In this document: positions 347-20,732 of the stretch, piece by piece
How the letters are laid out: each line of letters begins with the position of its first letter
Numbering within the stretch: position 1 is the first letter of the stretch
Virus record (IMG/VR): IMGVR_UViG_3300030012_001999
Coordinates: 1-20,732 of that record
Length of the DNA: 20,732 nt
Direction: 5' to 3' (one strand)
Origin: a virus
Program-made: the position numbers and the translations under genes
Notes under the pieces: generated by a model
Seen by the model: only the letters and a program-made list of their open reading frames with translations
Databases searched by the model: none
Told to the model about the DNA's origin: nothing

Positions 347-378
347 CCCTACCAGGGGTTAAATGGGAGGAGACACTC

Positions 379-4337: not shown

Positions 4338-4338
4338 T

Positions 4339-5194: not shown

Positions 5195-5217
5195 TATATA
5201 ATAGTTAGGAGAAGGTA

Positions 5218-6068: not shown

Positions 6069-6069
6069 C

Positions 6070-6553: not shown

Positions 6554-6554
6554 T

Positions 6555-6869
6555 ATGAAAGTATTCGTTAAGGGCAATGTGGATCTTAAGAAAGCATTCA
6601 AAAAAGTGCTGAATGAGGTTACTGATGACTTATTTAATGAAGTAAGGCAACTTACTCCGGTAGATACAGGCAGAGCCCAAAGCGGATGGCAAATTATGAG
6701 GGGCGGTGATACTAATATTATTAGTAATGCTGTCCCTTATATTGAACCTTTGGATAAAGGTCATTCAGACCAAGCACCAGAGGGTATGACTAAACCGGCA
6801 GTTCAGCGTATCGTTCAGAACGCAAAGTCCGGGAAATATAAAATAAAGAAAAGAGGACTATTCAAATGA
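6555..6869 (+). CDS. HK97 gp10-like neck/minor tail protein
   Basis: A 104-residue protein. The pattern FNEVRQLTPVDTGRAQSGW (residues about 29-47) is the hallmark of the HK97 gp10-like family, in which the TPVDTGRA segment is the most conserved part; SNAVPYIEPLDKGHSDQAPE (about 55-76) matches the family's later Y..LE.G.S.QAP.G region. Family members act at the head-tail joint or tail completion. ATG 6555 begins the conserved part; a longer frame from 6525 would overlap the tube gene and has no ribosome site. This family usually sits before the tube gene, so its place after it is unusual. Its last four bases overlap the chaperone start. Confidence 0.9.
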   Translation: MKVFVKGNVDLKKAFKKVLNEVTDDLFNEVRQLTPVDTGRAQSGWQIMRGGDTNIISNAVPYIEPLDKGHSDQAPEGMTKPAVQRIVQNAKSGKYKIKKRGLFK

Positions 6870-7270: not shown

Positions 7271-7419
7271 GTAAAAGCGTAGAAGAAGTGATGCAATTCA
7301 GCGTCCAAGAAATTACATATTGGGGTGCATACTTTGAATTACTAAGGAGAGAGCAAAAGAATGAGCGACATAAATCTAATAATCTCAGCCACAGACCAGG
7401 CAAGCGGTCCGTTAGGTAG
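7219..7419 (+). CDS. T-like domain of the G-T frameshift product
   Basis: Reading on in the -1 frame after AAC (7217-7219) gives 66 more residues beginning LQKDAELRFIFFLAKELGKS, with a later VEEVMQFSVQEITYWGAYFE, and ending at TAG 7417-7419. The pattern of Leu-rich helix, LGKSVEEV, S.QEI..W.AYF and a charged end is the usual form of gpT-like extensions. The full G-T protein would be 184 residues (118 in zero frame plus 66). It overlaps the tape measure start by 59 bases, as in lambda, where T overlaps H. There is no separate start with a ribosome site, so it is expected only as a fusion. In tail assembly the T domain is thought to bring tube subunits to the chaperone-coated tape. Confidence 0.87.
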   Translation, partial: LQKDAELRFIFFLAKELGKSVEEVMQFSVQEITYWGAYFELLRREQKNERHKSNNLSHRPGKRSVR

Positions 7420-9439
7420 TATTCAAGGTAAGTTAGCCGGAGTAACAAGTGCCGCGGCAACTACAGGCGGTGGCTTTACAAACATGGGTGGCAAAATAAA
7501 AGCCGCTCTTGGTGTAGCGGCGGCAGGTTTTGCTGTATTCAAAGGTATTACTGCAATCAATGATAGAATTGCAGAGATGGATGACTTAGCAAAGCGAGCC
7601 AGAACAGTGGGAGCCGCTACAGAAGAAGGCTTTGCAGGATTTCAAGTAGCAACACAACTATTAGCAGAAGGTGGTCTATCAGCACAAGAGGCAGATAGAG
7701 CATTCAACAACTTACAACTAAGATTAGCAGAAGGTGCCAAAGGTAATAAGGCATATGCTGAGATTATGGGTAAGTTAGGCGACAGCGTAATGGATGCGAA
7801 CGGTGATTTGAAAACTGCACCAGAACTATTTGAAAGTGTAGCAACAGCAGTCCAAGATGGAACGCTATCAATAGATGAAGCATCAAAAATATTAGGACAA
7901 AGAGTTGGTCCAAAGATTGTAGGTATATTTACAGACTTAGCCGCAGGTGGAACAGATGTTAAAACTGCATTAGAAGATGTTGCGGCAAATACAAATATTA
8001 TCCCGCTTGATGCGGCAAAGAATGCAGAAGTATTTGGCGATACAATGGAAAGAATTAGACAAGTTCTTGGTAAAGTTATGACGGAAGCTATTACTCCGTT
8101 ACTACCATTATTAGTTCAACTGGCAGAGAATGCATTAGCGGCATTACCGCCTATCATTGAGAAAGTTCAAAAAGGATTTGCGGCGGCACAACCTATATTC
8201 GAAGCTATAGGAGTTGTCTTAACAGATGTCGTATTCCCTATCATTGGTTTATTAGCAGATGGACTTATAACTCTATTAGAAGCATTAGGGCCTATCTATG
8301 AAAAAGCATTACCTATATTCAAAACAACGCTTGAAGCTGTATCAAATGCAATCGAAGTAATTGTAGAAAAGATTACAGGCTTTATCGATGGTGTAAAAGA
8401 AGTAGGTGAAACTATTTCAGATATTACAGGCGGAGTTAAAGACAAAGTATCAGACTTAGCATCAGGTGTTGGCGATAGCTTTACATCTATGGCAGATAAT
8501 ATGAAATCAAAAGCCGCAGACGCAAAAGATGGTGTCTTAAGGTTCTTTGGTATTATGGAACATGAGGCAGTCGGTGGATCTATTATCCCTGATATGGTTA
8601 GAGCTATCATTGGTGAATTTGAAACAATGCGAAGCACCATGATAAGCAAAACTAAAGAAGCTGGTAAAGGTGTTATAAAAGAATTAGACTTAGTTAAAGG
8701 TGAATTAAATGACGATGGGTCAGTAGATTTTTTCTTTGATCCTAAACAATGGGAAAAATTACACGCCGATGCATTTAAGAAAGGTGGCGCAAGTATAGGA
8801 AACTATATCAAGCATGTAGATTTAGCAGATGCTACTTCAAATACATTTACAGGTAATATTGCAAGGTCAGCCGTGCAAATATCAGATGCATTTGGTTCAA
8901 TGACCGGAACTATCTCAGCAACTATGACTGATGTTGTATTAGGAATGAAAGATGGCTTTGAAGCATTAGAAGACATTGCATTATCAGTTGTAAAATCAAT
9001 CGTAAATGCATTAATACAAAACTTTATCGTCTCACCATTAATTAGAAATATTCAAAACTCAATCATGGGAGTTACAGGTGCTGGAGCAGGCGCTGGAGGC
9101 TTTATGTCTTCTTTAGGTGGATTTGGTCCGCTTGGTGCATTAATAGGTATAGGTGGATTGATAGGAGGCTTCTTAGCAGATGGTGGCCCTGCAAGAGCAG
9201 GCACTCCTTATGTCGTAGGTGAAAGAGGCCCGGAACTCTTTGTCCCTAATACATCAGGAACGGTTGTAGCAAATGAAGAATTAGCAATGGTAAATCAACA
9301 ACCATTAAATGTTACATTCCAGATACAAGCTATTGATACTCAGCAAGGCGTAGAGTTCTTATTAGACAATAAACAAATTATAACTGGCGTAGTCCAAGAT
9401 GCCTATAATCGAAGAGGCGAAGCTGGACCGTTAGGTTAA
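7361..9439 (+). CDS. tail tape measure protein
   Basis: The longest gene here, 692 residues, after the chaperone; ATG 7361 follows AAGGAGAGAGCAAAAGA. The N-terminus (INLIISATDQASGPLGSIQG) and Ala/Gly-rich helical segment at about 35-60 are typical. Long helical, partly hydrophobic stretches occupy the middle (about 240-320), which could insert in or cross the host membrane during DNA delivery. Near residues 606-630 lies the common tape measure motif GGPARAGTPYVVGERGPELF, after a Gly-rich hydrophobic segment (PLGALIGIGGLIGGFLADGG). At the usual rule of about 1.5 angstrom per residue the tail would be near 100 nm. No lysozyme or peptidase motif was seen. Confidence 0.93.
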   Translation: MSDINLIISATDQASGPLGSIQGKLAGVTSAAATTGGGFTNMGGKIKAALGVAAAGFAVFKGITAINDRIAEMDDLAKRARTVGAATEEGFAGFQVATQLLAEGGLSAQEADRAFNNLQLRLAEGAKGNKAYAEIMGKLGDSVMDANGDLKTAPELFESVATAVQDGTLSIDEASKILGQRVGPKIVGIFTDLAAGGTDVKTALEDVAANTNIIPLDAAKNAEVFGDTMERIRQVLGKVMTEAITPLLPLLVQLAENALAALPPIIEKVQKGFAAAQPIFEAIGVVLTDVVFPIIGLLADGLITLLEALGPIYEKALPIFKTTLEAVSNAIEVIVEKITGFIDGVKEVGETISDITGGVKDKVSDLASGVGDSFTSMADNMKSKAADAKDGVLRFFGIMEHEAVGGSIIPDMVRAIIGEFETMRSTMISKTKEAGKGVIKELDLVKGELNDDGSVDFFFDPKQWEKLHADAFKKGGASIGNYIKHVDLADATSNTFTGNIARSAVQISDAFGSMTGTISATMTDVVLGMKDGFEALEDIALSVVKSIVNALIQNFIVSPLIRNIQNSIMGVTGAGAGAGGFMSSLGGFGPLGALIGIGGLIGGFLADGGPARAGTPYVVGERGPELFVPNTSGTVVANEELAMVNQQPLNVTFQIQAIDTQQGVEFLLDNKQIITGVVQDAYNRRGEAGPLG

Positions 9440-9449
9440 AGGAGAAACA

Positions 9450-11318
9450 ATGGCATTCGATTTGAAACATTATCAGGCAACGTATGCAGATAGTAATAAA
9501 GGAAACTTTGATAATGATGCAATCATAAACAGATATCCTTTTATCTGTAGCAGAGAAGCATTATATCAAGCATTAGATGGGGCAAACTTAGCAAACAATT
9601 CACAAAGAAACCCTAATGGTTATACAATCAAACAACTGACGGATAAGATTATAGCACATTGGGATCAAATTATGGCTCAAAACTGGGATAGAAGTGTTAG
9701 TTATAATAACCCTCGACCATTTGCAGATGTTATAGACAATTATAACTGGTCACAATCAGCGTTTTGGGCAAATAGTAGCACAAGTTTCATTGCATTAAAT
9801 GAACAAGATAACGGACCAAGAACAGCCGCACAGATTGTAGGTGATGTAGATATTATTCTATTACCTCAAACAATTTATACTGTAGATACGGTAGTTTATA
9901 AACAAAAACCTTTCTTAGCATTTGATACTAATGGTTATATTGCAGACGCAAGTGGCACAAGTGCTACATTAATTGGAACAGATGACTTTGGAGTAGAGTT
10001 AGATGTAAATAGTGATGGCAGAGTAACTGGCATAACATCATCAGGCACGACAGATGATCCTACAGCTATTGCCAGCGGTGCAAGATATGGTGCAACTTTA
10101 TTACATGTCTATGACTTTAACTTTTACCACGATGACTTAAATGTAAATGGATCAGACTTCTCAGTCAATCCAGCATACACAGGACATGATGTAATTGCAA
10201 CATCAACTAAATGGTTTGACCTGCGTAGAGCAAAGTTCTCAGTAACTATATCAACAAGTGGAGGAACTTCTGGTCAAGTAACTGCAATTACACCTGTAGC
10301 AGTTAATGATGGATCAGGAGCGGCAAGAACAGGTGGTTGGGATTATGATGAGACAGCAGATGACTATTGGGAGTTATACTTTATTAATAAATTACCATTA
10401 CAAACTAATACACAGTTACCGCCAAGAGTTCTATTCAGAACAAACACAGCGGCAGACAATGGTAAAGGTAAAAAAGCTACAGTAGATATTACAGACAAAG
10501 AAAGTGAGTTCTTCGAAGGTAAAGCATTAACAAATTCATATATTGATACAGCATTTGCAATACCTACATTTTCATTAGTAAGTCCTGGACATACTCAAGT
10601 TATGGGAACAAGCACTGATAGAGGCAAACAATGGTTTGAAAGAAACTGGCCAAGCAAGGCATTTGGAGATGGCATTGATCCAGCAGTTGTAAGAATTATA
10701 AGTGAAAGACCTTCATTAAAATCTACAACAAGAAGTTTCAAAACAACTACAACAGGAACTGGTGCTCATAGATTTAGATTTGAATTTGAATACCCGCCAA
10801 TGAGTTATGAAGAAGCAAAACCTTACTTAGAAAAGTTTGAAAGTTTCAGAGCAGATACTTTACCCTTACAGTTGTATATTCCTTCTACAGCAATAAATCA
10901 TTATGGTAAATGGACATCAGAACAAACAACTATTGGTGATTGGCCAAGAAGACAAGTTATGGAAAGTGCTGAAAAAGGTTCAGAGAGAATGATATTAAAT
11001 GGTCATACACCTCAAACCCCTCTTATCCCTAAAGGAACTTTTTTCTTTTCAGCAATGAGTAAAAAGCTGTATCAGATTGTAGGTGCAGGAACACAAAATC
11101 CAGACATATATGGTAGAGTTGCATATTTGGTTGAACCGCCTTTCATAACGGATCAAAGTGGTGACTTTATTAAAAACAATAATAAAGACCAATTTTCTAT
11201 TAACAAAAACTATCTATTAATAAAAGCATTCTTAGAAGACAATACATTAAATTATACTGTAGATGCCGCAGGTATCTATCGTATGACCTTCAAGTTTAGG
11301 GAGGCGGTAGATGAGTAG
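9450..11318 (+). CDS. distal tail / minor tail protein
   Basis: A 622-residue protein following the tape measure, preceded by AAAGGAGAAACA. The N-terminal 110 residues are Asn/Asp/Trp rich (NNPRPFADVIDNYNWSQSAF) and look like a separate module. The middle (about 130-350) is beta-rich with a Gly/Thr/Ser-rich linker, and has an Asp/Asn loop (DVNSDG, 185-190) that might bind a metal. The C-terminal part (about 420-560: HRFRFEFEYPPMSYEEAKPY, then FESFRADTLPLQLYIPS) resembles distal tail proteins that start the baseplate. Position before L-like and J-like genes fits. Length is large for a plain Dit, so extra domains are likely. I cannot name a precise family. Confidence 0.65.
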   Translation: MAFDLKHYQATYADSNKGNFDNDAIINRYPFICSREALYQALDGANLANNSQRNPNGYTIKQLTDKIIAHWDQIMAQNWDRSVSYNNPRPFADVIDNYNWSQSAFWANSSTSFIALNEQDNGPRTAAQIVGDVDIILLPQTIYTVDTVVYKQKPFLAFDTNGYIADASGTSATLIGTDDFGVELDVNSDGRVTGITSSGTTDDPTAIASGARYGATLLHVYDFNFYHDDLNVNGSDFSVNPAYTGHDVIATSTKWFDLRRAKFSVTISTSGGTSGQVTAITPVAVNDGSGAARTGGWDYDETADDYWELYFINKLPLQTNTQLPPRVLFRTNTAADNGKGKKATVDITDKESEFFEGKALTNSYIDTAFAIPTFSLVSPGHTQVMGTSTDRGKQWFERNWPSKAFGDGIDPAVVRIISERPSLKSTTRSFKTTTTGTGAHRFRFEFEYPPMSYEEAKPYLEKFESFRADTLPLQLYIPSTAINHYGKWTSEQTTIGDWPRRQVMESAEKGSERMILNGHTPQTPLIPKGTFFFSAMSKKLYQIVGAGTQNPDIYGRVAYLVEPPFITDQSGDFIKNNNKDQFSINKNYLLIKAFLEDNTLNYTVDAAGIYRMTFKFREAVDE

Positions 11319-11871
11319 AGGTGTCGTATCCGCAACCGCTACTGAAATCGCAACAAGAAGTTTTAATATAGTTAATCTTGTAGATTTTGCAGTTGGTTCT
11401 GGTAATTATGGAACAGATGCACAAGTAGATATATCGTTTGGTGGTAATAACTATCTTGCGGCAGGCGGTGCATTACAAATTAGCGAAGTCACAGAAGAAG
11501 ATACACTTAAGATTGAAAGTATTACTATAACCTTAAGTGCTTTAGATACCTCAGTTGTAAGTTATTTCTTAGATAACGATTACATGGACAAACAAGTAAT
11601 AGTTCGTAAAGCTGTAATAGGTGATGACCATCAAATCATTGGAGATCCTATATTAGTATTCGATGGTAGATTGGATCAACCTACAATTACAGAAGACTTT
11701 AATTCAAGCACAGCAGTTATTCAAGTAAAAGCAAGTTCGCATTGGGCAGACTTTGATAAATCAAATGGTCGTCATACAAATGATGCTGAACAAAAGCAAC
11801 TCTTTCCTGGAGATACATTCTTTGAAAAAGCAAGTGTTGTAAATAAAGATGTTAAGTGGGGTAGAGAATAA
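11311..11871 (+). CDS. baseplate hub / L-like minor tail protein
   Basis: A 186-residue beta-rich protein overlapping the previous gene by eight bases, with GGGAGGCGGTAG before ATG 11311. Segments such as NNYLAAGGALQISEVTEEDT, IESITITLSALDTSVVSYFL and PILVFDGRLDQPTI, then a terminal region with HTNDAEQKQLFPGDTFF and the ending DVKWGRE, match the hub proteins found between the distal tail protein and the J-like tip in many siphoviruses (L-like or DUF2163-like N-terminal domain). The W.D.....GRHTNDAEQ segment is a recognisable feature of these proteins. It likely forms part of the ring closing the tail tube. The stop overlaps the next ATG as TAATG. Confidence 0.72.
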   Translation: MSRGVVSATATEIATRSFNIVNLVDFAVGSGNYGTDAQVDISFGGNNYLAAGGALQISEVTEEDTLKIESITITLSALDTSVVSYFLDNDYMDKQVIVRKAVIGDDHQIIGDPILVFDGRLDQPTITEDFNSSTAVIQVKASSHWADFDKSNGRHTNDAEQKQLFPGDTFFEKASVVNKDVKWGRE

Positions 11872-13343
11872 TGGGTCTATTTTCAGGTATATTTGGTTTT
11901 GTAAAAACAATTTTTACAACTTTTAATCCGGTAGTTACTATTGCCGCTATAGCTTTAGGCGTTTTTGCCGCAAAGTCATTAAAAAAGAAAAAGCAAAAGG
12001 CAATGCAAGCCGCTACTGCTGGTATATCAGGAGTATTAGTTACAAAGCAAGGAACTAATGAACCTATACCGGTTATATATGGTGAGCGTAGAGTAGCAGG
12101 TGCAAGAGTTTTTATAGAAGCATCAGGAACTGATGGTGATACAAAGAATGCTTACTTTCATATGGTAGAAGTTATAGCAGAAGGCCCAGTTCAAGGACTA
12201 CAAGAAATTTATTTTAATGATGAGTTAGTAGCTACATCTGGTGATAATGGTGCAACTATAGATTACTCAGCAGGAGCAACAGATTACTCTGCAAAAGCGG
12301 CAACTAAGTTTTTTGATGGATCACAATCAGCAAGAGTATCCGGAACTTTATTAGGACAAAGTATTTCAAGCAACTGGCCAAGTGGTGCAATTGGAAATAA
12401 AATATCATATGTTTATACAGTATTAAAATGGGATCAGGACTTATTTGGTTCTGGTGTCCCGACAATTACATACAAGATGAAAGGAAAGAAAGTTCCTGCT
12501 CTTGGAAGTAATCAATCATCTACACTTACATACAGTGATAACCCAGCATTATGTATCCATGACTATCTTACATCAACTCTTTACGGGAAGGCTATAGACC
12601 ATACATTATTAGATGCTGATCCTTCAAGTTCAAGTTTCAAAACTGTAAAAGATTACTGCGACCAGACAGTTGCAAAGACGGCAACAGATAGCACGGCAGT
12701 TACAAGATATACTGCAAATGAAGTTATAGATACAGATACAAGAATGCTTGATAACTTAGAAGATTTATTATCTACATGTCGTGGTGGTCTAATTACAAAT
12801 GAAAAATATAAACTAATCGTAGATAAACCAGAAAGCACATCAGGTATAATTACAATAGATGATAACCATATTATAGGTAATATTACATTTACTCAAGCAA
12901 GTAAAAAGACTTTAACTAACAGATTAAGATGCTCATTTCCTAATGAAGCAGGAACTCTTAACTTCCAAGATGATATCGTTGTATTAGAAAGCACAGCATT
13001 ACAATCAAGTGATGGTCTTGTATTGAATAATGATGTGGTTCTTACAGGAGTTACAAATAAAGAAAGAGTGCTAAGAATATTAAATGAAGAACTAAATCAA
13101 AGCAGACAAAGTGGTCAATTAAGTGTTCAAGTTGATGCAAGTCTAATTGATATAGGTGTATATGATATAGTTAAATTTACAAATACGACATTTGGACAAA
13201 CTAATAAGCTATATCGTATCATGCAAACGGTCTTGAACCCCGATAATACTATCACACTAAATATGAAAGAGTATGATGCAAACGTATATTGGGATAACAA
13301 TAAAAGCATCATAACAAATAATAAAGACGATACGGATTATTAA
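11871..13343 (+). CDS. J-like tail tip protein
   Basis: A 490-residue protein. A hydrophobic N-terminal segment (PVVTIAAIALGVFAAKSLKK, residues 20-39) and the block PIPVIYGERRVAGARVFIEA (65-84), followed by YFHMVEVIAEGPVQGLQEIY, are characteristic of J-like/central tip proteins, which form the tail tip and contact the host surface. Later segments (DNLEDLLSTCRGGLITNEKY, then VQVDASLIDIGVYDIVKFTN) match the barrel domains of this family. It is shorter than lambda J, so receptor binding is probably done by the separate fibre encoded next. It is translated through a TAATG overlap with the hub gene. Confidence 0.85.
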   Translation: MGLFSGIFGFVKTIFTTFNPVVTIAAIALGVFAAKSLKKKKQKAMQAATAGISGVLVTKQGTNEPIPVIYGERRVAGARVFIEASGTDGDTKNAYFHMVEVIAEGPVQGLQEIYFNDELVATSGDNGATIDYSAGATDYSAKAATKFFDGSQSARVSGTLLGQSISSNWPSGAIGNKISYVYTVLKWDQDLFGSGVPTITYKMKGKKVPALGSNQSSTLTYSDNPALCIHDYLTSTLYGKAIDHTLLDADPSSSSFKTVKDYCDQTVAKTATDSTAVTRYTANEVIDTDTRMLDNLEDLLSTCRGGLITNEKYKLIVDKPESTSGIITIDDNHIIGNITFTQASKKTLTNRLRCSFPNEAGTLNFQDDIVVLESTALQSSDGLVLNNDVVLTGVTNKERVLRILNEELNQSRQSGQLSVQVDASLIDIGVYDIVKFTNTTFGQTNKLYRIMQTVLNPDNTITLNMKEYDANVYWDNNKSIITNNKDDTDY

Positions 13344-13345
13344 CT

Positions 13346-14611
13346 ATGACTATAATTATACCAGGAGTTTCAGCAGATGGATCAGTTGTAAAAGCACAAC
13401 TGGCAAATGATAGTGTCGATGCAACCAAGATAGACTTTGGCACAGGAAGCAATCAAGTTGATACAGATGTTTTACCAGAAGGTTCAACTAATCTATATCA
13501 TACAAGTGAAAGAGTAGATGATAGAGTAAATGCATTATTAACCGCCGGCTCTAACATAACATTAACTTATGATGATGCGGCTAATACACTTACTATAGCG
13601 GCTACAGAAGATAACTTAGCAAACAATAGTTTATTTGACTTATCAGATGTAACTGGAACACACGGTGCAGGCAAGTTATTAGTTAATACAGGTTCTGCCT
13701 TTGCCGCAGTTGATGTAGATACAGATAGTATTACAGAAGGTTCATCAAACTTATTTCATACTACAGCAAGAGCCATTTCAGCAGTAGAAGGTGAAGCAAC
13801 TCTTAATTTACAAAAAGGTGTAACTGTAGATACTGATATATCTATAGGTGATTGGAGCTATCGTAATAATACAAACTTACCTGCAACAGGTCTAAGGATC
13901 ATATCACCAGAAGATAAAGTTAGATGGCCTATGATAAACTTAGAAGGCTTTGGTGGTAACTTAGCAGACGCAGATGATAAGCCTTTCAATATACATAATC
14001 CTACAATATCAGGTATAATACACGGCGGAACACAAGCATCGCCTACAGCGGCGGCAACTGACCAGCGAACTTTAAGTATATCTGGCACAGCAAGATTTGG
14101 AACTTCATCAGGAGATATAGATACGATATCACAGATATCAATGAATACAACTGAAGCACAAACTTCAACTAATCGTGGTGGTAATCAAATATTTAGAATA
14201 ACTCCTACAACTACTACTTCTATGAAAGATTATCTAAAAGTAGATGCCGCAGGATTGAATAATCTTAATATAGCATATGATCCAAGCGGAGAGTTTTCTT
14301 TTACTAACTTATCTTCACAATCAACTAACGGATTTCAAATAGGTAATAATGTTAAAATAGATGGTAATACTACTCTTGGAGATGCTAATACAGATACGGT
14401 AACTGTAAATGCAGTTATGAGCATAGCCGATACAGCAGGCTTTAAGATAGGTAATATTTCTAAAGCAACAGCAGATGCTTTAGATGCCGGAGGCTTTGTT
14501 TCAAAAGGCGGTATCGCTTTAATTACAGACGGGTCAAGAGCAAATGTTCCTATCTTTTACGACGGTTCAGACTGGCGATATTTCTCAGACAGTGCCGTGA
14601 TAGCGAGTTAA
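13346..14611 (+). CDS. tail fibre with EGSxNLxHT repeats
   Basis: A 421-residue protein starting two bases after the J-like stop; no clear ribosome site, so it may depend on coupling. The N-terminus (GVSADGSVVKAQLANDSVDA) is of the kind seen in marine phage fibres. Two copies of a repeat follow: PEGSTNLYHT (residues 44-53) and TEGSSNLFHT (130-139), the first continuing as SERVDDRVNALLTAGSN. This 27-residue block recurs with 22 identities at the end of the window (20652-20732). The rest is Thr/Asn/Gly-rich beta structure, and the C-terminus (DGSRANVPIFYDGSDWRYFS) looks like a fibre tip domain. It probably binds the host receptor. Confidence 0.82.
   Translation: MTIIIPGVSADGSVVKAQLANDSVDATKIDFGTGSNQVDTDVLPEGSTNLYHTSERVDDRVNALLTAGSNITLTYDDAANTLTIAATEDNLANNSLFDLSDVTGTHGAGKLLVNTGSAFAAVDVDTDSITEGSSNLFHTTARAISAVEGEATLNLQKGVTVDTDISIGDWSYRNNTNLPATGLRIISPEDKVRWPMINLEGFGGNLADADDKPFNIHNPTISGIIHGGTQASPTAAATDQRTLSISGTARFGTSSGDIDTISQISMNTTEAQTSTNRGGNQIFRITPTTTTSMKDYLKVDAAGLNNLNIAYDPSGEFSFTNLSSQSTNGFQIGNNVKIDGNTTLGDANTDTVTVNAVMSIADTAGFKIGNISKATADALDAGGFVSKGGIALITDGSRANVPIFYDGSDWRYFSDSAVIAS
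13475..13555 (+). repeat. fibre repeat block, copy 1
   Basis: Codes for 27 residues (44-70 of the fibre at 13346), of which 22 are identical to the last 27 residues of the fibre gene at 19383. The DNA is also similar, with GTAGATGATAGAGTAAATGC shared exactly. A shorter copy of the start of the block lies at residues 130-139 of the same fibre. Confidence 0.85.
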
Positions 14612-14615
14612 TCAG

Positions 14616-14831
14616 ATGATACAGACAGCAAATACAATGAATAGTTATACTCTAATGCGTTTAGATTACATGTTAGATAGATATAAAGATTATGGCTTTA
14701 TAGACTTACATGACTTACATCAATTCGTTATAGAGTTTAGACATTTGCCTCAAGCAAAACAAGAAAAGTATGCATTCTTATTAGATGAGTGTGCAGAATT
14801 ATTTGACGAGGCAGAACAACCTACGAGGTAA
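14616..14831 (+). CDS. small acidic protein of unknown function
   Basis: A 71-residue protein after the fibre gene, acidic and probably helical (YTLMRLDYMLDRYKDYGFID; LPQAKQEKYAFLLDECAELF). No known motif. ATG 14616 is four bases after the fibre stop; ATG 14637 is an alternative and neither has a clear ribosome site. It is the first of five small genes that follow the fibre and end the rightward structural block. Confidence 0.6.
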   Translation: MIQTANTMNSYTLMRLDYMLDRYKDYGFIDLHDLHQFVIEFRHLPQAKQEKYAFLLDECAELFDEAEQPTR

Positions 14832-14835
14832 GATT

Positions 14836-15093
14836 ATGGCAAAACAAAAAGTTCCTAAACTAACTGAAGGTGTAAGAAAGTCTTTACAAGCAAGAGCAAA
14901 GACAACTAAAAAATATACATACGGAGACTTAGCTAAAGTTTATCGTAGAGGTCAAGGTGCATACTTAGGTGCAGGATCTCGTCCAGGAGTAAGCATGTCT
15001 CAATGGGCTTTCGGCAGAGTAAATAGTTTCATAAGAGGTGGCAACCACGATACAGATGTAAAACTTTCTGCGGCAAAAAGGAGAAAGCGATAA
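14836..15093 (+). CDS. small basic phage protein of unknown function
   Basis: An 85-residue, strongly basic protein; ATG 14836 follows CGAGGTAAGATT. A longer frame from 14785 would overlap the previous gene without a ribosome site. The middle (KKYTYGDLAKVYRRGQGAYL followed by GAGSRPGVSMSQWAFGRVNS) has the form of a conserved phage protein I have seen described only as hypothetical in marine phages: YGDL.KVY.RG.GAY..GSRPG.S..QWA..RVNSF. The end is Lys/Arg rich (KLSAAKRRKR). Function unknown; charge would fit contact with DNA or RNA. The stop overlaps the next ATG. Confidence 0.75.
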   Translation: MAKQKVPKLTEGVRKSLQARAKTTKKYTYGDLAKVYRRGQGAYLGAGSRPGVSMSQWAFGRVNSFIRGGNHDTDVKLSAAKRRKR

Positions 15094-15287
15094 TGGCAAA
15101 GAAGCAAAGACGAGTAGCAAAAGATAAAGCAACTGGATTGCCTAAAAAATATCTATCAGGTATCAAAGGGGCACAAAGAACAAGATTAGCACAAGTAACT
15201 GCACAGATAAGTAGATTATATCAAGCAGGAAAAAGAATACCTAAAAGTCTTTTAGATGAAAAGATGAGATTAGGTAGAAAGAAGTAA
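15093..15287 (+). CDS. small basic protein with a PKKYLSGIKG motif
   Basis: A 64-residue, strongly basic protein. AAAAGGAGAAAGCGATA precedes ATG 15093, and the start overlaps the previous stop. Sequence: TGLPKKYLSGIKGAQRTRLA, then helix-forming RLYQAGKRIPKSLLDEKMRL. This LPKKYLSGLKG...R...I.R.Y..GK.IP pattern recurs in small phage proteins of unknown role, often beside the kind of protein encoded just upstream. A paired role with that neighbour is likely but unproven. Confidence 0.72.
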   Translation: MAKKQRRVAKDKATGLPKKYLSGIKGAQRTRLAQVTAQISRLYQAGKRIPKSLLDEKMRLGRKK

Positions 15288-15288
15288 T

Positions 15289-15615
15289 ATGCCATATAGA
15301 CCAAATGAAATGATGAGAAAAGCGGCACAGACTGCATTAGATTATAATGATACAGTTGCACCATCAAATAGATGGGGAACTCCTACAGGTCTTCAAAGAG
15401 CAAGAAAGATAGCCGCAGGAAAAGAGTTTGATAGAGATGAGATTGCCCAGATAGCAGGGTTCTTATCTCGTTTTGAAAAAGATTATGAGCGCCAAAGAGC
15501 CAGCAAGAAATACGGAAAAGCATACTACGCCTATATGGGGTGGGGTGGGCCTTCTGGTCTTGCATGGGCCCGTGATAAGCTAAAACGATACGAGCAGAAA
15601 AAACGGGAGTATTAG
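15289..15615 (+). CDS. small protein with a WGGPSGLAWARDKL motif
   Basis: A 108-residue basic protein one base after the previous stop. The N-terminal half (RKAAQTALDYNDTVAPSNRW, then GLQRARKIAAGKEFDRDEIA) and the ending AYMGWGGPSGLAWARDKLKR match a small domain common in phage proteins, whose pattern is NA..GL.....G.GT..G..RA..L..G..........M..FF.RH followed by LWGG..G..WA...L. The domain occurs alone or attached to head or maturation proteins; its biochemical role is unknown to me. Third member of the small-gene cluster behind the fibre. Confidence 0.72.
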   Translation: MPYRPNEMMRKAAQTALDYNDTVAPSNRWGTPTGLQRARKIAAGKEFDRDEIAQIAGFLSRFEKDYERQRASKKYGKAYYAYMGWGGPSGLAWARDKLKRYEQKKREY

Positions 15616-15628
15616 GTATGAGGCTCTC

Positions 15629-15901
15629 ATGTATAAAGTTTTAGATAAAGAAAAATTTAGATACGCTGGCAGATTAAAGATAAGAAAAGGCGCACTAAAG
15701 CATTCATCAGGACATATTCTTATATCAAGTTCAACAGATTTAAGCAAAATACCCCCAAATGTGCAATTAATTACAACCTTAGTTGATAAAGTCAATTATT
15801 GGGAGATTATTCTACCTAAAAATGGTGAGTTTGGTAATTATGGTGCTAAGGATGTAGAAGAATTAGCTAAAAAGATGGATGCAGTCGCATATATTACATA
15901 A
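15629..15901 (+). CDS. hypothetical 90-residue protein
   Basis: A protein of mixed composition (GRLKIRKGALKHSSGHILIS; LITTLVDKVNYWEIILPKNG), probably alpha/beta, ending with a helix (AKDVEELAKKMDAVAYIT). No motif recognised. ATG 15629 lies in a weak context (TGAGGCTCTC before it). It is the last gene before the non-coding region with promoters and the first candidate RNA, and the poly-A/poly-T palindrome at 15900-15917 begins at its stop codon. Confidence 0.65.
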   Translation: MYKVLDKEKFRYAGRLKIRKGALKHSSGHILISSSTDLSKIPPNVQLITTLVDKVNYWEIILPKNGEFGNYGAKDVEELAKKMDAVAYIT

Positions 15902-15917
15902 AAAAATGCATTTTTTT
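15900..15917. terminator. poly-A/TGCA/poly-T palindrome, possible late terminator
   Basis: Seven A, TGCA, seven T form a perfect 18-base palindrome starting at the stop codon of the last late gene and ending in a T run. It could stop transcription on either strand, but a hairpin of only A-U pairs is weak. Confidence 0.35.
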
Positions 15918-15928
15918 GAAAAAAGTGC

Positions 15929-15957
15929 TTGACTTTACCTAATTATCGTGTTATATT
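15929..15957 (+). promoter_or_regulatory. sigma70-type promoter P1
   Basis: TTGACT (15929-15934), 17-base spacer, TATATT (15952-15957); start expected near 15964. It faces a stretch with no good gene and a terminator about 210 bases on. The -35 context GCTTGACT is shared with the promoters at 16195 and 17384. Confidence 0.82.
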
Positions 15958-15963
15958 AGTATT

Positions 15964-16174
15964 ATAAGCTGAACAATGGACATGGTTAGCTTATATATAC
16001 AACATTGTATATATCCTTAAGATGTGAGGGACATTCAGAGAGTTGGCGCTCGTCCCTCACAACTAAATATATGTTCAAGTTTATGTTTTTAACTTCATGC
16101 AGAAGTTCTAAGCGTATTTTCTCCCTGAATATCCACTAAGAGGGCTCATTTCTTTGAAATGGGCTCTTTTTTTT
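15964..16174 (+). ncRNA. candidate structured small RNA (about 210 nt)
   Basis: Lies between a sigma70 promoter and a strong terminator and has no supported reading frame. Four helices precede the terminator hairpin. Helix 1: TAAGCT-AAC (15965-15974, one bulged G) with GTTAGCTTA (15985-15993), 9 bp. Helix 2: TATATACAA (15994-16002) with TTGTATATA (16005-16013), 9 bp. Helix 3: TGTGAGGGAC (16023-16032) with GTCCCTCACA (16052-16061), 10 perfect bp including a GC-rich run. Helix 4: AACTTC (16091-16096) with GAAGTT (16102-16107), 6 bp with a five-base loop. I do not recognise a known family. It could be a trans-acting small RNA, a decoy for a host factor, or an antisense RNA; the sequence does not say which. 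Confidence 0.72.
16138..16174 (+). terminator. strong Rho-independent terminator
   Basis: AAGAGGGCTCATTTC (16138-16152), TTT loop, then GAAATGGGCTCTTTT: about 15 pairs including three wobbles, continuing into a run of eight T. It ends the candidate RNA from P1 and insulates the next promoter. Confidence 0.9.
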
Positions 16175-16194
16175 GGTTTATATACACTTTATGC

Positions 16195-16223
16195 TTGACT
16201 TTGATAAATAATAATGTTAGTAT
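16195..16223 (+). promoter_or_regulatory. sigma70-type promoter P2
   Basis: TTGACT (16195-16200), 17-base spacer, TAGTAT (16218-16223); start expected near 16230, just before the tandem hairpins. Drives the four-gene operon 16296-17380. Shares ATGCTTGACT with P3. Confidence 0.8.
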
Positions 16224-16234
16224 GAATATATTAA

Positions 16235-16267
16235 GTAGCGAGTGCTACCGGATAGCGAGTGCTATCC
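16235..16267 (+). promoter_or_regulatory. two tandem hairpins with identical GAGT loops in the operon leader
   Basis: First hairpin GTAGC-GAGT-GCTAC (16235-16248, 5 bp); one base later GGATAGC-GAGT-GCTATCC (16250-16267, 7 bp). The core AGCGAGTGCT is the same in both while the outer stem bases differ but still pair, suggesting selection on structure and loop. The pair sits within a few bases of the expected RNA start from P2 and 28 bases before the first ATG. A double binding site for a regulatory protein or RNA is the simplest reading; there is no T run, so a terminator is unlikely. Confidence 0.75.
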
Positions 16268-16295
16268 ACACTATTAACTATGAAAGGAAAACAAA

Positions 16296-16469
16296 ATGGC
16301 TAATAAACAAATGAAAGATGCTCTTATGGAATGGGTAAAAAGCGAAAAGGTTTTGGCCTGGAGTATAGGATATGTAAATGACCAGATTGGACATTATCTC
16401 AATAAAACAAAAGACCAAGCAGGTGCAGATGAAGCCTGGAAAATATATCAGGAGAAAATAAATGAATAA
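16296..16469 (+). CDS. small hypothetical protein, first gene of the P2 operon
   Basis: A 57-residue protein; ATG 16296 follows GAAAGGAAAACAAA. The sequence is probably helical (KQMKDALMEWVKSEKVLAWS; AGADEAWKIYQEKINE). No known motif. It is the first gene after P2 and the tandem hairpins, and its stop overlaps the next gene by eight bases, so both are likely made together. Its place in a promoter-rich region outside the virion genes suggests an early or regulatory role, which is inference. Confidence 0.75.
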   Translation: MANKQMKDALMEWVKSEKVLAWSIGYVNDQIGHYLNKTKDQAGADEAWKIYQEKINE

Positions 16470-16776
16470 CTTAAAAGGATATTGGGTTCTAAGCAAAGTC
16501 TCAGGGCCTTTTCAAAGCGATAGAACAGGAGATTACTTCTTAGTAGAAATGGTAGATGCTCATACTAAAAAGACCTACAAGAGTTATATCGTAAATGAAA
16601 ATCATAATCGTCATAACTGGCACGACATCTTAGAAGAACATTGGGGTGTCTATACTGGTATCAAACTCAAAAGGTCAAAAGGAAAACAAGTTATCAATGC
16701 AGATAGCAGACCTAAGTTAGCAGAGCAACTAACTGAGCAAGAGTGTAAAAATTTCCGAATGACGGGCAGTATTTAA
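16462..16776 (+). CDS. hypothetical protein, second gene of the P2 operon
   Basis: A 104-residue protein with CAGGAGAAAATAA before ATG 16462. The N-terminal part is strand-rich (KGYWVLSKVSGPFQSDRTGD, then YFLVEMVDAHTKKTYKSYIV), the middle has NENHNRHNWHDILEEHWGVY, and a basic stretch KLKRSKGKQ follows. The layout could fit a small beta-barrel nucleic-acid binder, but I see no signature and do not assign one. It is expressed with its neighbours: an overlap at its start and TAATG at its stop. Confidence 0.78.
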   Translation: MNNLKGYWVLSKVSGPFQSDRTGDYFLVEMVDAHTKKTYKSYIVNENHNRHNWHDILEEHWGVYTGIKLKRSKGKQVINADSRPKLAEQLTEQECKNFRMTGSI

Positions 16777-16946
16777 TGAACAAAGAAGAAGAATACGCAT
16801 ACAATATATTCTTATACGGCGAGTTGTTTAAGAATATATTACATGCATTACGCACAAAGAAAGACAAGAAGTTTCATGTGCCAAAAAGATATGAAGAAGC
16901 TACAAATTCAGCAGTAGCTTTCTTTAACAAATGGGAAAAACAATGA
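16776..16946 (+). CDS. small hypothetical protein, third gene of the P2 operon
   Basis: A 56-residue protein starting in a TAATG overlap. It is helical and charged, with aromatic residues (EEYAYNIFLYGELFKNILHA; SAVAFFNKWEKQ). No motif recognised. Its stop TGA overlaps the ATG of the next gene (ATGA), so it belongs to the same translation chain. Confidence 0.72.
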   Translation: MNKEEEYAYNIFLYGELFKNILHALRTKKDKKFHVPKRYEEATNSAVAFFNKWEKQ

Positions 16947-17380
16947 GTATAATAAATGAACAAATAAAAGACAAGGTAATACAATTAGACTGTGGATGTT
17001 GGATGTGGAACGGATCACAACATGCTCAAGGATATCCTATGAGCAGACATCCTGAAATAAAAAACAAAATGGTATTAGTAAGCAGACTATTCATGGAGAA
17101 TAAGTTAGGTTATAAACTTACAAAAGACCAGCGAGTAAAGAATACATGCGGTAATAAACTATGTGTAAATCCTGACTGCTATATTTTAGCAGAACCAGGC
17201 ACAGAAGAATGGAAATGTATTGGACACAAGATACCAAAAGATAAGAAAGATGCACTATGCGAAGAATATCAATCTACGCCTTATTATCACGGCAAGATTG
17301 TAGATATTAAAAGAAAGTATAAGATACATCATAATACAGTTACAGATATTCTTAAAAAAAGAGGAATATCTATAAGATAA
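16943..17380 (+). CDS. I-PpoI-like zinc protein lacking catalytic residues, with C-terminal HTH
   Basis: A 145-residue protein; ATG 16943 overlaps the previous stop (ATGA), and ATG 16931 is an alternative. Residues 17-34 (CGCWMWNGSQHAQGYPMS) and 67-79 (NTCGNKLCVNPDC) match the His-Me finger endonucleases. In I-PpoI the motif is H98-x-C100-x4-C105-x4-H110 with C41 as fourth zinc ligand; here it is N67-x-C69-x4-C74-x4-C79 with C19. The zinc site is kept (His replaced by Cys), but the catalytic His is Asn, and the active-site Asn nine residues past the last ligand is Glu88. Residues about 115-142 (GKIVDIKRKYKIHHNTVTDI) look like a helix-turn-helix. A DNA-binding regulator derived from a homing nuclease is the best reading; function is inferred. 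Confidence 0.75.
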   Translation: MSIINEQIKDKVIQLDCGCWMWNGSQHAQGYPMSRHPEIKNKMVLVSRLFMENKLGYKLTKDQRVKNTCGNKLCVNPDCYILAEPGTEEWKCIGHKIPKDKKDALCEEYQSTPYYHGKIVDIKRKYKIHHNTVTDILKKRGISIR

Positions 17381-17383
17381 TGC

Positions 17384-17412
17384 TTGACTATGGCATTAAA
17401 ATAGTGTAATAT
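17384..17412 (+). promoter_or_regulatory. sigma70-type promoter P3
   Basis: TTGACT (17384-17389), 17-base spacer, TAATAT (17407-17412); start near 17419. Begins four bases after the previous stop and drives the gene at 17530. Confidence 0.8.
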
Positions 17413-17423
17413 TAATACACTAC

Positions 17424-17447
17424 AAGGACAATAAATTGTCTATCCTT
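17424..17447 (+). other. leader hairpin after P3
   Basis: AAGGA-CAAT (17424-17432) can pair with ATTG (17435-17438) and TCCTT (17443-17447), giving 9 bp with a four-base bulge; GACAAT/ATTGTC is an alternative inner pairing. It lies at the 5' end of the transcript from P3. A role in stability or control is possible. Confidence 0.45.
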
Positions 17448-17495
17448 TAGAACAACTAAAGTAAGCAATTAATCAATCGATTTAGGGGAACAAAT

Positions 17496-17594
17496 ATGAA
17501 AAGAACTATTAACAGAAAGGTTAAAAATAATGAAACATTATTTAGAAAAAGAAAATGCGATAGATATCGCACAATGGTTATCCAGAGATCCTGA
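17496..17594 (+). CDS. possible 32-residue basic leader peptide
   Basis: ATG 17496 follows TTAGGGGAACAAAT, a better ribosome site than that of the main gene at 17530. The frame encodes a very basic peptide (MKRTINRKVKNNETLFRKRK and 12 more residues) and runs 65 bases into the main gene in another frame. It may be a real overlapping gene, a leader that tunes translation of the main gene, or chance. Confidence 0.3.
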   Translation: MKRTINRKVKNNETLFRKRKCDRYRTMVIQRS

Positions 17595-18165
17595 AACTGG
17601 TGAAGTTACAATCGATGAGAAATGTCCATGGGTTGTAAGAACTAAACCTAATGCAAAACCTCAAATAAGATGCTGGAGTCTTAATCCAGAAAAGCAAAAA
17701 GAATACCCATATGGTAATCTACATAGCTTACAAATGTTTGCATGGGTTGTATTAGGCAAAAACCCATATCCAGGTAAAAGACATATTGAAGTTGTAAAAG
17801 GTCACAAGTTAAATATGAACCCGGATCATTTAAGACTTAAACCTCTGAGAGAAAAATCAAAATCAAAAGAAGTAGATTGGTATTATCCATACGACTTAAT
17901 GCGTGATGATGAAGATAAAGAATTGCAAAAGTATCTACATTGGTTAGCTAAATCACCGGCAATCAGAACGTTGATGCAAGAAATGAAACAATCTCTTGCA
18001 GGTAAAAAGGACAATATGATAGCTAAAATGCTATTTGCAGATATCTTATTAAGTGATGCAAAGCAATATGATAAAGCTAACGAGTTTTATGATATAGTTC
18101 AAGCAATAAGAGACATACAGTCTAAACATGTTGTATCTCTTTTAAGACAACAACTAAAAGGATAA
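17530..18165 (+). CDS. HNH-like protein without the catalytic His, plus C-terminal helical domain
   Basis: A 211-residue protein from promoter P3; ATG 17530 lies nine bases after AGAAAGG. Residues about 60-105 (LHSLQMFAWVVLGKNPYPGK, then HIEVVKGHKLNMNPDHLRL) follow the homing HNH pattern, in which HR.VA..F....P is followed by V-N/D-H-I-D-G...N.p.NL. At the place of the catalytic His there is Val88 (EVVKG), so cleavage is doubtful. Residues about 118-211 are helical (KYLHWLAKSPAIRTLMQEMK; ANEFYDIVQAIRDIQSKHVV) and unlike a nuclease. A DNA-binding regulator or recruiter is plausible. The alignment is weaker than for the protein at 16943, and His85 or His92 might substitute. A terminator follows at 18226. 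Confidence 0.65.
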   Translation: MKHYLEKENAIDIAQWLSRDPETGEVTIDEKCPWVVRTKPNAKPQIRCWSLNPEKQKEYPYGNLHSLQMFAWVVLGKNPYPGKRHIEVVKGHKLNMNPDHLRLKPLREKSKSKEVDWYYPYDLMRDDEDKELQKYLHWLAKSPAIRTLMQEMKQSLAGKKDNMIAKMLFADILLSDAKQYDKANEFYDIVQAIRDIQSKHVVSLLRQQLKG

Positions 18166-18225
18166 ATAATAATGATAATGTTATCAGCCATGATATTATC
18201 AATCCTGAATAGTTAATACTATATC

Positions 18226-18260
18226 GACCCTTGTATGACTCCCGTCTGCAAGGGTCTTTT
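18226..18260 (+). terminator. Rho-independent terminator after the second HNH-like gene
   Basis: GACCCTTG (18226-18233) pairs perfectly with CAAGGGTC (18249-18256), followed by TTTT. The loop can extend the stem through GAC/GTC. It separates the P3 transcript from promoter P4. Confidence 0.82.
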
Positions 18261-18285
18261 AGTATGAAAAAAGGCTAAAAAAAGG

Positions 18286-18314
18286 TTGTAATAGAGTTTA
18301 TTTTATGTTATATT
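18286..18314 (+). promoter_or_regulatory. sigma70-type promoter P4
   Basis: TTGTAA (18286-18291), 17-base spacer, TATATT (18309-18314); start near 18321. The -35 is weaker than in P1-P3, but spacing and -10 are ideal. It points into the large non-coding structured region. Confidence 0.68.
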
Positions 18315-18320
18315 ATAAAT

Positions 18321-18842
18321 AATACTAATAAAAAACTATTCAGGCTAATATCTATCTAATACAATTCAACTATAGTCTCCTGGCAAACGGGAAATGCGCC
18401 GATGTAAAGGTGGTGAATCCCATGAGACCTGCGTGTAGCAGTATCTACAATATGGTTGGCTATATGAACACACGAGCCGAAGTGTTCTTAAAAACTCTGG
18501 ACTAATGGTGAAGGATCGAGGCCAAATAGCAATACAACCTGGAGTATTCCGAAAGTCCCACGCCCCGAGCAGGGCGTCTTATGGATGGAGAGATGAGAAC
18601 ATCATTACTCCATATATCTTCACATATACCAATATATTATGAAATACAACTTAGGTCTTAAGTAATCGTTAATGAGAAATAGCTTTAATGAGCAAAGCGA
18701 ATTAAAGTATTTCGATATTAACAGGTCTTGTAAAGACCTTCTAATATTACTACCGTAATCAACTAACAATGAATAGCTATGGATAGATGGGAGGGTTAGC
18801 AAAAAGGACAGAAACTTACCCTCCCTTGAAAACTGTATCACC
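18321..18842 (+). ncRNA. candidate large structured RNA (about 500 nt)
   Basis: No supported gene on either strand, a promoter in front, and a chain of helices: 18434-18449 (5 bp); 18450-18465 (6 bp, TTGG loop); 18466-18487 (GAACAC/GTGTTC); 18494-18500 with 18539-18545 (7 bp); 18560-18577 (ACGCCC/GGGCGT, GC-rich); 18585-18613 (ATGGAG and GATG nested); 18668-18722 (19 bp in three runs, one bulge, one internal loop); 18723-18739 (7 bp); 18746-18759 (5 bp); 18789-18825 (GGGAGGGT/ACCCTCCC). Bases 18349-18358 can pair with 18780-18789 (10 pairs, two wobbles), closing most of the region. Size, phage setting and many helices recall the giant phage RNAs GOLLD and ROOL, but I cannot confirm membership. 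The 3' end is uncertain; no T run follows the last helix. Confidence 0.75.
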
Positions 18843-18914
18843 GGTTTCCATTCGTATTTATAGCTAAAACTTCAAGCATAAATAGATGTAAGTAAAAAAA
18901 CTAAAGGATTAATT

Positions 18915-19034
18915 ATGACGGAACATGAAAAACACAAAACAAGATTTTATAAGATGGCAAATGGGTTAATGTCTATTGCATATATCGCCTTATTTGCATA
19001 TTTTTTAGCAGAACTATCATCATTGATATTCTAA
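18915..19034 (+). CDS. 39-residue membrane peptide
   Basis: ATG 18915 follows AAAGGATTAATT. The sequence begins with a basic, polar head (MTEHEKHKTRFYKMANG) and continues as one hydrophobic helix (LMSIAYIALFAYFLAELSSL), a clear single-span topology with the positive end probably inside. It is the first gene after the large RNA and lies 13 bases before the next structural gene. A small holin, antiholin or membrane effector is possible; there is no signature to decide. Confidence 0.65.
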   Translation: MTEHEKHKTRFYKMANGLMSIAYIALFAYFLAELSSLIF

Positions 19035-19047
19035 CAGGAGTAAGTGC

Positions 19048-19383
19048 ATGGCATCAGGCAAATTAGACATTACAGTAGAACAAGGCGCTACATTTAGCAG
19101 ACTTATTACTATAAAAGACGCATCAAATACAGCAGTAAATATATCATCAGATACATTTGCAGGTCAGATAAGAAAAAGACATCAAAGTGCAACAAAAGAA
19201 GCAGACTTTGACTTTACAATTACAAATGGTTCAGCAGGTCAAGTTACAGCTACAATCACTAATACTAATACAGCTTCAATGGATCCAGGAGACTTCGTAT
19301 ATGATATTGAATGGACAAGTGGATCAACTGTAACAAGATTATTAGAAGGGACAGCTACAGTAACGCCTGAGGTAACCAGATAA
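19048..19383 (+). CDS. small virion/fibre-associated protein
   Basis: A 111-residue beta-rich protein with AACAGGAGTAAGTGC before ATG 19048. The pattern KLDITVEQGATFSRLITIKD, then FAGQIRKRHQS, VTATITNTNTASMDPGDFVY and DIEWTSGSTVTRLLEGTATV, ending TPEVTR, matches a common phage structural domain in which Q.R......GT.....L..G.Y.YDLE......V.RLLEG...V.PEVTR is the usual form; it is found near fibre genes. It probably forms an attachment or adaptor module for the following fibre, translated through a TAATG overlap. Precise role unknown. Confidence 0.75.
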   Translation: MASGKLDITVEQGATFSRLITIKDASNTAVNISSDTFAGQIRKRHQSATKEADFDFTITNGSAGQVTATITNTNTASMDPGDFVYDIEWTSGSTVTRLLEGTATVTPEVTR

Positions 19384-20732
19384 TGACCTCAGTTACAGTT
19401 TCAGACACACAATTTAATATAACTGTAAGCGATACTGCAAATACAGTTACAGTAGGGACAGGCGGTGACGTAAATGTAACCGTTAATCAACAAACTTTAT
19501 CTACAGCCGTATCTAATGTAGGTGGAGGCGCACAAGTATTAAAAAGTATCACAGGTGATACACTAATTGCAAGAACGATTGTAGCAAATACAGAAGGCGA
19601 TATCGTTGTAACGCAAAATGCAAATGATATTGACTTAGCATTAAGTGATGCAATAGAAGTCAATTCAGTTGCACTAAACGGGACATCAGGCGATGTTCTA
19701 AATCAAACTCAAGCAGGAGCAACTGCTCGTTTTGCCGGAACTGTCGTAGCAGGCACTTTACAAGCATCAAATATTGACGGAGCATCAACTATTGACGGCA
19801 CAGGTAATATTACGATTACTCCTGGCAGTTCAAACTTTGTTCATGCTAATACACAACTAAGTGTAGGTAATACTGCAACTCCGCAGTCAGTAGAAATCAC
19901 AGGAACTACAATAGGTAAATCAAGTGGTTCAGCTACAGACATTACATTTACAGGTAATCACTCAGGTAATTTAACTGCGGCAACTACAAATATATCTGGT
20001 CATCTTATCCCAGTAACAGACGATACACACGATTTAGGTTCAACTACAAAAAGATTTAGAGACTTATATTTAGGTCCGGGATCTCTTTTCGTTAATAATC
20101 AGAAAGTATTAGAAGACGATAGCGGTGAGATTAAGATATCTTCAACTAACAACTTAAGTATTCAAAGTGGTGGCGCTTTAACTATTGATAATACAGGTAA
20201 TACTACAACTATAAATGATACAGCTATCAACTTAGGCCCTTCACAATCAGGAGCTACAGTTCGAATAAGAGGAACTTTAGAAAGTCCTGATACACATGTA
20301 GGTGATTTAGAGTTAGGCGCACAACTTATCAATCAAACTACTACAAATGGTAACTTAGAAATAAGAACTAATGGTGCAGGCTTTACGCATATTAATACAG
20401 CAGATTTATATGTAGGTCCGCTATCAGGTGCAGTAAAGATTGACGAGAACTCAATAGGTGTAACTGCAGGAACTCTTACAGTTACAGGTAATCTTACAGG
20501 TTCAGTTACAGGACAAGTATCAGATATATCAAATCATTTATTAGATGAAGATAACTTTGCAAGTGATAGTGCAACAAAGGCACCATCACAGCAATCTACA
20601 AAGGCATATATTGCTTCACAAATTTCTACAAAAGACAATACAGACGAGATTACAGAAGGTTCAAGCAACCTTTATTTTACAAATGAACGTGTAGATGATA
20701 GAGTAAATGCACTATTACAAGCAGGATCTAAC
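19383..20732 (+). CDS. large tail fibre (3' partial)
   Basis: Open for 450 codons from ATG 19383 (TAATG overlap) to the window edge with no stop. It is Thr/Asn/Gly/Ser rich and beta-repeat-like (VSDTANTVTVGTGGDVNVTV; LTVTGNLTGSVTGQVSDISN). At residues about 214-235, TDDTHDLGSTTKRFRDLYLG is a well-known fibre motif of marine phages. The last 27 residues (TEGSSNLYFTNERVDDRVNA and LLQAGSN) repeat a block of the fibre at 13346. The C-terminus is missing; the fragment at 1-113 is a candidate for it. Likely a receptor-binding long fibre or a partner of the first fibre. Confidence 0.82.
   Translation, partial: MTSVTVSDTQFNITVSDTANTVTVGTGGDVNVTVNQQTLSTAVSNVGGGAQVLKSITGDTLIARTIVANTEGDIVVTQNANDIDLALSDAIEVNSVALNGTSGDVLNQTQAGATARFAGTVVAGTLQASNIDGASTIDGTGNITITPGSSNFVHANTQLSVGNTATPQSVEITGTTIGKSSGSATDITFTGNHSGNLTAATTNISGHLIPVTDDTHDLGSTTKRFRDLYLGPGSLFVNNQKVLEDDSGEIKISSTNNLSIQSGGALTIDNTGNTTTINDTAINLGPSQSGATVRIRGTLESPDTHVGDLELGAQLINQTTTNGNLEIRTNGAGFTHINTADLYVGPLSGAVKIDENSIGVTAGTLTVTGNLTGSVTGQVSDISNHLLDEDNFASDSATKAPSQQSTKAYIASQISTKDNTDEITEGSSNLYFTNERVDDRVNALLQAGSN
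20652..20732 (+). repeat. fibre repeat block, copy 2, at the window edge
   Basis: The last 81 bases encode the 27-residue block also found at 13475-13555 (22 of 27 residues identical). The window ends exactly inside this shared block. Confidence 0.85.

Follow-up and report, generated by a model that had tools for sequence, protein, structure and literature searches.

Small RNAs encoded by phages are already known as a kind. PreS of phage lambda, VpdS of VP882 and DicF of the Qin prophage have mRNAs of the host or the phage as their targets, and the OOP RNA of lambda is a short phage RNA transcribed from its own promoter (PMC12197685). The first three come from temperate phages or prophages of enterobacteria and Vibrio, and OOP acts in cis, as an antisense RNA to cII. 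OOP also has its own terminator. In the alphaR8 sRNAs (Rfam RF00519, suhB; MmgR of Sinorhizobium meliloti and SisA-D of Caulobacter crescentus), an exposed anti-Shine-Dalgarno 10-mer, UUUCCUCCCU, does the acting and is accompanied by an intrinsic terminator, and members of the family associate with Hfq (PMC12559287).

The stretch of DNA analysed here, referred to as the window, is a virus record of 20.7 kb (20,732 nucleotides). Its large terminase, portal and tail-tip proteins are closest to those of the Pelagibacter phages HTVC026P, HTVC111P, HTVC112P and HTVC202P and of phage DSL-LC06, and because the identities are 26-48%, the window phage is taken to be an uncultured relative of these phages. 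Two related contigs of 24.8 kb (G005) and 23.7 kb (G006) have terminal overlaps of 126 and 96 bases, respectively, from which complete genomes in the group are probably about 24 kb long. The cultured phages HTVC026P and HTVC111P have structural genes in common with the window, but the gene order at the RNA locus differs. When bacterial genome contigs were scanned for a host, the tail protein gave no match and TerL gave a single 45% match in a Spirochaetales MAG, which is uninformative on the host. The frame at the right end (19383-20732) and the tail gene at 13346-14611 match one and the same place in relatives, over about 32 residues, and seem to share a segment.

The RNA unit is located directly 3' of the gene at 15629-15901, which closes a same-strand run of packaging, capsid and tail genes; its placement just past the last late gene by the earlier note is borne out. 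The features of the locus are as follows:

15629-15901, + strand: 90-aa gene with no function assigned (no Pfam or PHROGs match), directly 5' of the RNA unit.
15929-15957, + strand: promoter TTGACT-17-TATATT with TGT immediately 5' of the -10 hexamer (10 of 12 matches).
15964-15994, + strand: hairpin 1 of the predicted fold, 9+2 pairs, containing GACAUGGUUAGC.
15995-16012, + strand: hairpin 2 of the predicted fold, 7-8 pairs.
16013-16019, + strand: linker with AUCCUU, unpaired in the predicted fold (UCC unpaired, 0.89).
16024-16060, + strand: hairpin 3, GUGAGGGAC...GUCCCUCAC with loop segment GUUGGCGCU, from the predicted fold and comparison with 4869-4909 of the related phage L002.
16071-16132, + strand: hairpin 4 of the predicted fold, interrupted, with UUUUCUCCCU (16117-16126) mostly exposed on its 3' side.
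16117-16126, + strand: anti-Shine-Dalgarno-like segment UUUUCUCCCU, identical at 9 of 10 positions to the alphaR8 10-mer.
16138-16174, + strand: intrinsic terminator of 15 pairs (16138-16170) with eight T (16167-16174).
16195-16223, + strand: following promoter, TTGACT-17-TAGTAT; its spacer, GATAAATA, is conserved in relatives.

Because the separate promoter at 16195-16223 starts the next operon, the RNA unit is distinct from that operon.

The promoter of the RNA unit is of the sigma70 type, with the -35 hexamer TTGACT at 15929-15934, a 17-nt spacer, the -10 hexamer TATATT at 15952-15957 and TGT as an extended -10 element, the last being an addition to the textbook promoter described earlier. 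An equally good TGn promoter was found in 2.3% of dinucleotide shuffles of the 330 nt 5' of the terminator. The terminator, likewise found as it had been described, is the strongest in the window and the sole terminator-like site of more than 10 pairs in bases 1-20000. With a predicted transcript start at about 15964, the RNA would span 15964-16174 (211 nt) and its body without the terminator 174 nt. The unit was said to hold no usable reading frame, and no convincing one was found: the only frames inside it are a TTG-started frame of 44 aa at 16005-16139, which has no evident ribosome-binding site and lies in body sequence that is unconserved in relatives, and the beginning of another at 16159. 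As read from the sequence, the unit therefore has the attributes of a phage trans-acting sRNA, namely its own promoter and terminator and a noncoding body. No Rfam family matched anywhere in the window at its gathering score, and loose thresholds gave nothing convincing on the unit, in keeping with the earlier failure to recognise a family; a previous description of the family was not found in Rfam or in the literature searched. No second copy of the unit was present in its own record.

The predicted minimum-energy fold of RNA 15964-16174 has a free energy of -65.7 kcal/mol (z -5.45), and 0 of 200 shuffles were as low. For the body minus the terminator the value was -48.2 kcal/mol, compared with -31.8 +/- 4.0 kcal/mol for shuffles (z -4.2). 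The stems in the minimum-energy fold have 9(+2), 7 and 10(+2+4) pairs, followed by an interrupted hairpin of 7/2/7/6 pairs and then the terminator, and the four helices of 9, 9, 10 and 6 bp proposed earlier are close to this arrangement.

Relatives of the window were reached via the 108-aa gene at 15289-15615, and consisted of L002 (89% identity), L003, L004/L005, L006 and L007. L004 and L005 are nearly identical and were treated as one, and L007 stops inside the -10 box; L030 is the opposite end of the same contig as L007 and runs on through the RNA unit. A distant relative, L021 (tail-tip protein 42%), was also included, so that seven units were compared (window, L002, L003, L004/L005, L006, L030 and L021). 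The promoter, multi-hairpin body and terminator were found again in six related marine phage genomes. The unit lies between the homologue of the 90-aa gene and the early promoter in L002, L003, L004/L005, L006 and L030; the RNA promoter sits within the 3' end of the 90-aa gene in L003, L004, L006 and L030, and L002 has an additional terminator between that gene and the RNA promoter. In L021, the promoter-hairpins-terminator unit is located behind another gene. TGn extended -10 promoters with 9-11 of 12 matches were present 5' of the terminator in all seven units, and were equalled in 0-10% of the shuffles of each. This layout in six other genomes, together with the folding z-scores and the Rfam result, supports the claim of a stand-alone small RNA gene of about 210 nt.

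Another relative, L137 (TerL 72%), came up when the pattern of the early promoter was searched for. It is without the RNA unit at the usual site, where the early promoter directly follows a gene end that by eye resembles that of the 90-aa protein. A shorter similar unit is located some 1.3 kb further downstream. Its RNA promoter resembles the one in L002, and one of its hairpins contains CAUGGUU; this motif, and GACAUGGUU in the hairpins of L002, are akin to GACAUGGUUAGC in hairpin 1 of the window. Directly 5' of the relocated unit, the reverse complement of L137 at 1290-1450 is a terminator-bounded noncoding stretch with ACUCCUG and a hairpin CUACUG..CAGUAG, which is possibly a second small RNA. 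When cultured phages were searched with the unit by BLASTN, the best informative match was promoter-like DNA alone, in pelagiphage Mosig EXVC030M, where an annotated protein gene begins 37 bases beyond the match. BLASTN with the L002 unit gave nothing useful, and a search for the exact hairpin 3 across viral contigs gave zero matches.

The bodies minus terminator were predicted to fold more stably than their shuffles in all seven units, with z-scores of -4.2 (window), -3.2 (L002), -2.2 (L003), -3.8 (L004), -6.3 (L006), -2.9 (L030) and -2.2 (L021). Body lengths ranged from 82 to 240 nt, with L006 the smallest (about 82 nt). The bodies hardly align, and k-mer sharing among the seven units was not above that of dinucleotide shuffles; notable words in this search were TACTCCTT, in three of seven units, and TCCTT, in six of seven. 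No loop motif recurs across all relatives. Hairpin 3 can be aligned between the window and L002 (GUGAGGGAC...GUCCCUCAC and GUAUGUAAGAC...GUCUUACAUAC). Five of the nine window pairs are unchanged, four are altered on both sides in a compensatory manner, and the 9-nt loop segment GUUGGCGCU is identical; the alignment comprises two sequences, fewer than a formal test of covariation requires. The comparison shows a unit whose sequence diverges quickly while its predicted folding stays. The earlier note regarded a loss of the stems in phages that keep the promoter and terminator as evidence against the gene, and on this point the outcome was mixed. The stems are non-homologous between phages, the body of L006 is very short and the usual site of L137 is without the unit; on the other side, every relative has stable stems and L002 retains one of them by compensatory change. 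In our assessment, the unit is very probably a genuine and recurrent small RNA gene that diverges fast and represents a new family, as a gene and as a transcript class.

The window RNA is like the alphaR8 sRNAs in that a mostly single-stranded pyrimidine segment with an anti-Shine-Dalgarno signature (predicted so for UUUUCUCCCU in the window, UUUCCUCCCU in alphaR8) precedes a terminator with a U run, which in the window is found at 16138-16174. The UCC of UUUUCUCCCU is unpaired at 0.74 in the predicted fold, and since 82 of 100 shuffles also produce a 9/10 match of this kind at some point in the window, only its location tells. The RF00519 model scored 25.5 bits over 16101-16181, below the gathering cut-off of 41, and 21 bits at the same RNA unit in G003 and G004 (G004 3129-3196 is L005 4811-4878). 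None of 11 records had a match above the cut-off, and at E up to 10 the model also matched 14 of 14 control genomes. In contrast to the 77 positions of the alphaR8 model, the window RNA has 211 nt; it has extra strong hairpins and more UCC linkers, it is phage-encoded, and its 10-mer is inexact and missing from most window relatives. The candidate that the window RNA is an alphaR8 member was rejected because of the score under the cut-off and the matches in all 14 control genomes, and the resemblance to MmgR and SisA may lie in a possible way of working. Like PreS, VpdS and DicF, it is encoded by a phage, with host or phage mRNAs as the inferred class of targets, but it has no Rfam link. Unlike the cis-antisense OOP RNA, it has no complement in the record that is longer than expected by chance.

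Exposed trinucleotides were counted because the linkers repeatedly carry UCC and pyrimidines, and the motif was picked after the sequences had been inspected. UCC is the core of the anti-Shine-Dalgarno sequence. In the predicted folds of the seven units it was the most exposed trinucleotide, with 12 of 19 fully unpaired (63%) compared with 22% for all trinucleotides. Shuffles gave 4.1 +/- 1.6 exposed UCC, and 0 of 120 reached 12. Random segments of the same phages gave 1.1 +/- 1.1 on the + strand and 6.6 +/- 2.8 on the minus strand, and 5 of 120 minus-strand sets reached 12. ACUCCUU is found close 5' of the terminator in L003, L004 and L030, and GGA was rarely exposed (1 of 4). At the level of the group, the exposure of UCC in the modelled folds stands out clearly in the statistics, but because the motif was chosen post hoc, one of four UCC in the window passes the strict exposure test and the shorter unit of L137 has none, it falls short of proving a mechanism.

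A target search against mRNAs, of the kind that the earlier note proposed for the loops, gave a negative result on the phage side. Binding of the RNA tail to the ribosome-binding sites of its own phage, at 29 annotated or likely starts, was not above that of shuffled tails (mean P 0.065, best P 0.34). No perfect complement elsewhere in the record exceeds 10 nt, a length reached between 16115-16124 and 16451-16460 in the Shine-Dalgarno region of gene 16462, compared with a shuffle mean of 11.1; with a match length as by chance, this Shine-Dalgarno sequence is a target candidate only. A pairing of GGCGCUCG in hairpin 3 with the GCGAGUGCU hairpins of the next leader (16238 and 16255), which was seen by eye, is of chance length and was rejected.

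The early promoter 3' of the RNA unit in L002-L006 and L030 has the form TTGAC...GATAAATA...TGTTA, with close variants. The promoter at 16195-16223 contains the conserved spacer TTGACNNNGATAAATANNNNTGTTA, whose pattern, allowing A or C at a single position, was matched by 116 stretches of viral contigs, some from contigs seemingly unrelated to this group, and which may be an operator or a widespread type of early promoter. The leader of gene 16296 has tandem hairpins at 16233-16266 with an identical core, GCGAGTGCTA (16238 and 16255), and differing letters in the outer stems. The L004 RNA contains two hairpins with GAGU loops. A second noncoding stretch is located at 18225-18870, 3' of the gene at 17530-18165. 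It has a terminator-like CCCTTG..CAAGGG, then a promoter region that is strongly conserved in L003, L005 and L030, and then about 530 nt with GC-rich patches and no good frame. Parts of the stretch are conserved in L005 and L030, and L002 carries protein genes there. It had no convincing Rfam match and no match in cultured phages, and is possibly a larger structured RNA.

Tentatively, the RNA is best read as a base-pairing regulator with anti-Shine-Dalgarno segments between its hairpins, working in a manner like that of alphaR8. Host RNA polymerase with the main sigma factor would transcribe the unit from the start of infection, and the hairpins would stabilise the RNA and keep the UCC segments open. 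Binding of an RNA chaperone, for instance Hfq, may occur at the terminator stem and U tail. The UCC segments would pair with the Shine-Dalgarno sequences of host or phage mRNAs, so that translation initiation would be blocked, and quick change elsewhere in the RNA would mirror adaptation to differing hosts or targets. We give little credence to the wider proposal that the RNA family evolves fast and is kept for its layout and shape and not for its sequence, as a string of stable hairpins with several anti-Shine-Dalgarno linkers made from the first minutes, and that it would bring about a broad shut-off of host mRNA translation or titrate a chaperone.

The unit could also be a passive insulator, in which the terminator stops late transcription and the promoter and hairpin spacer have no RNA role or shield the early promoter from read-through. 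The lack of conservation of stems and length, and the site in L137 where the early promoter follows the gene end directly, are consistent with this. It is nevertheless unlikely, as a terminator by itself would suffice and L002 has a separate one before the RNA promoter, a strong forward promoter inside the unit would be needless, and all seven bodies beat their shuffles, with compensatory change and enrichment of exposed UCC. A shape that is kept while the sequence is quickly altered would also be expected if shape or short motifs count, as in a decoy whose array of hairpins sequesters an RNA-binding protein or a nuclease of the host, or affects a defence system, with pairing being secondary, and a strong promoter would fit a titrating RNA. 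We consider this quite unlikely, because no loop motif is common to all relatives and the exposure of UCC favours pairing; the scarcity of exposed GGA makes a CsrA sponge unlikely.

The position of the unit directly 5' of the early genes, on the same strand, would be compatible with a leader or attenuator that forms the 5' end of the early mRNAs and has a conditional terminator. This is very unlikely, since close relatives carry a second promoter with a conserved spacer just after the terminator, L137 retains the early promoter without the RNA unit, and no anti-terminator alternative was seen in the predicted fold. The small size, the noncoding look and the presence of the 44-aa frame might suggest an RNA that primes replication, serves in packaging or acts in cis as an antisense RNA, or else a gene for a short peptide, all of which we regard as extremely improbable. 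An antisense role is opposed by the absence of a second match in the record and by a longest complement below the shuffle mean, and a primer by a cumulative GC skew without a turn at the unit. The TTG start, the missing ribosome-binding site and the unconserved sequence of the 44-aa frame argue against a peptide.

Dedicated sRNA genes in small marine phages have hardly been described. The RNAs compared here have diverged past alignment while their position and architecture stay, and sequence searches consequently miss the RNA gene of the window. If the anti-Shine-Dalgarno reading is true, this would be a phage that regulates by the same logic as the sRNAs of bacteria, and it suggests that further hidden phage RNAs would come to light in searches based on synteny.
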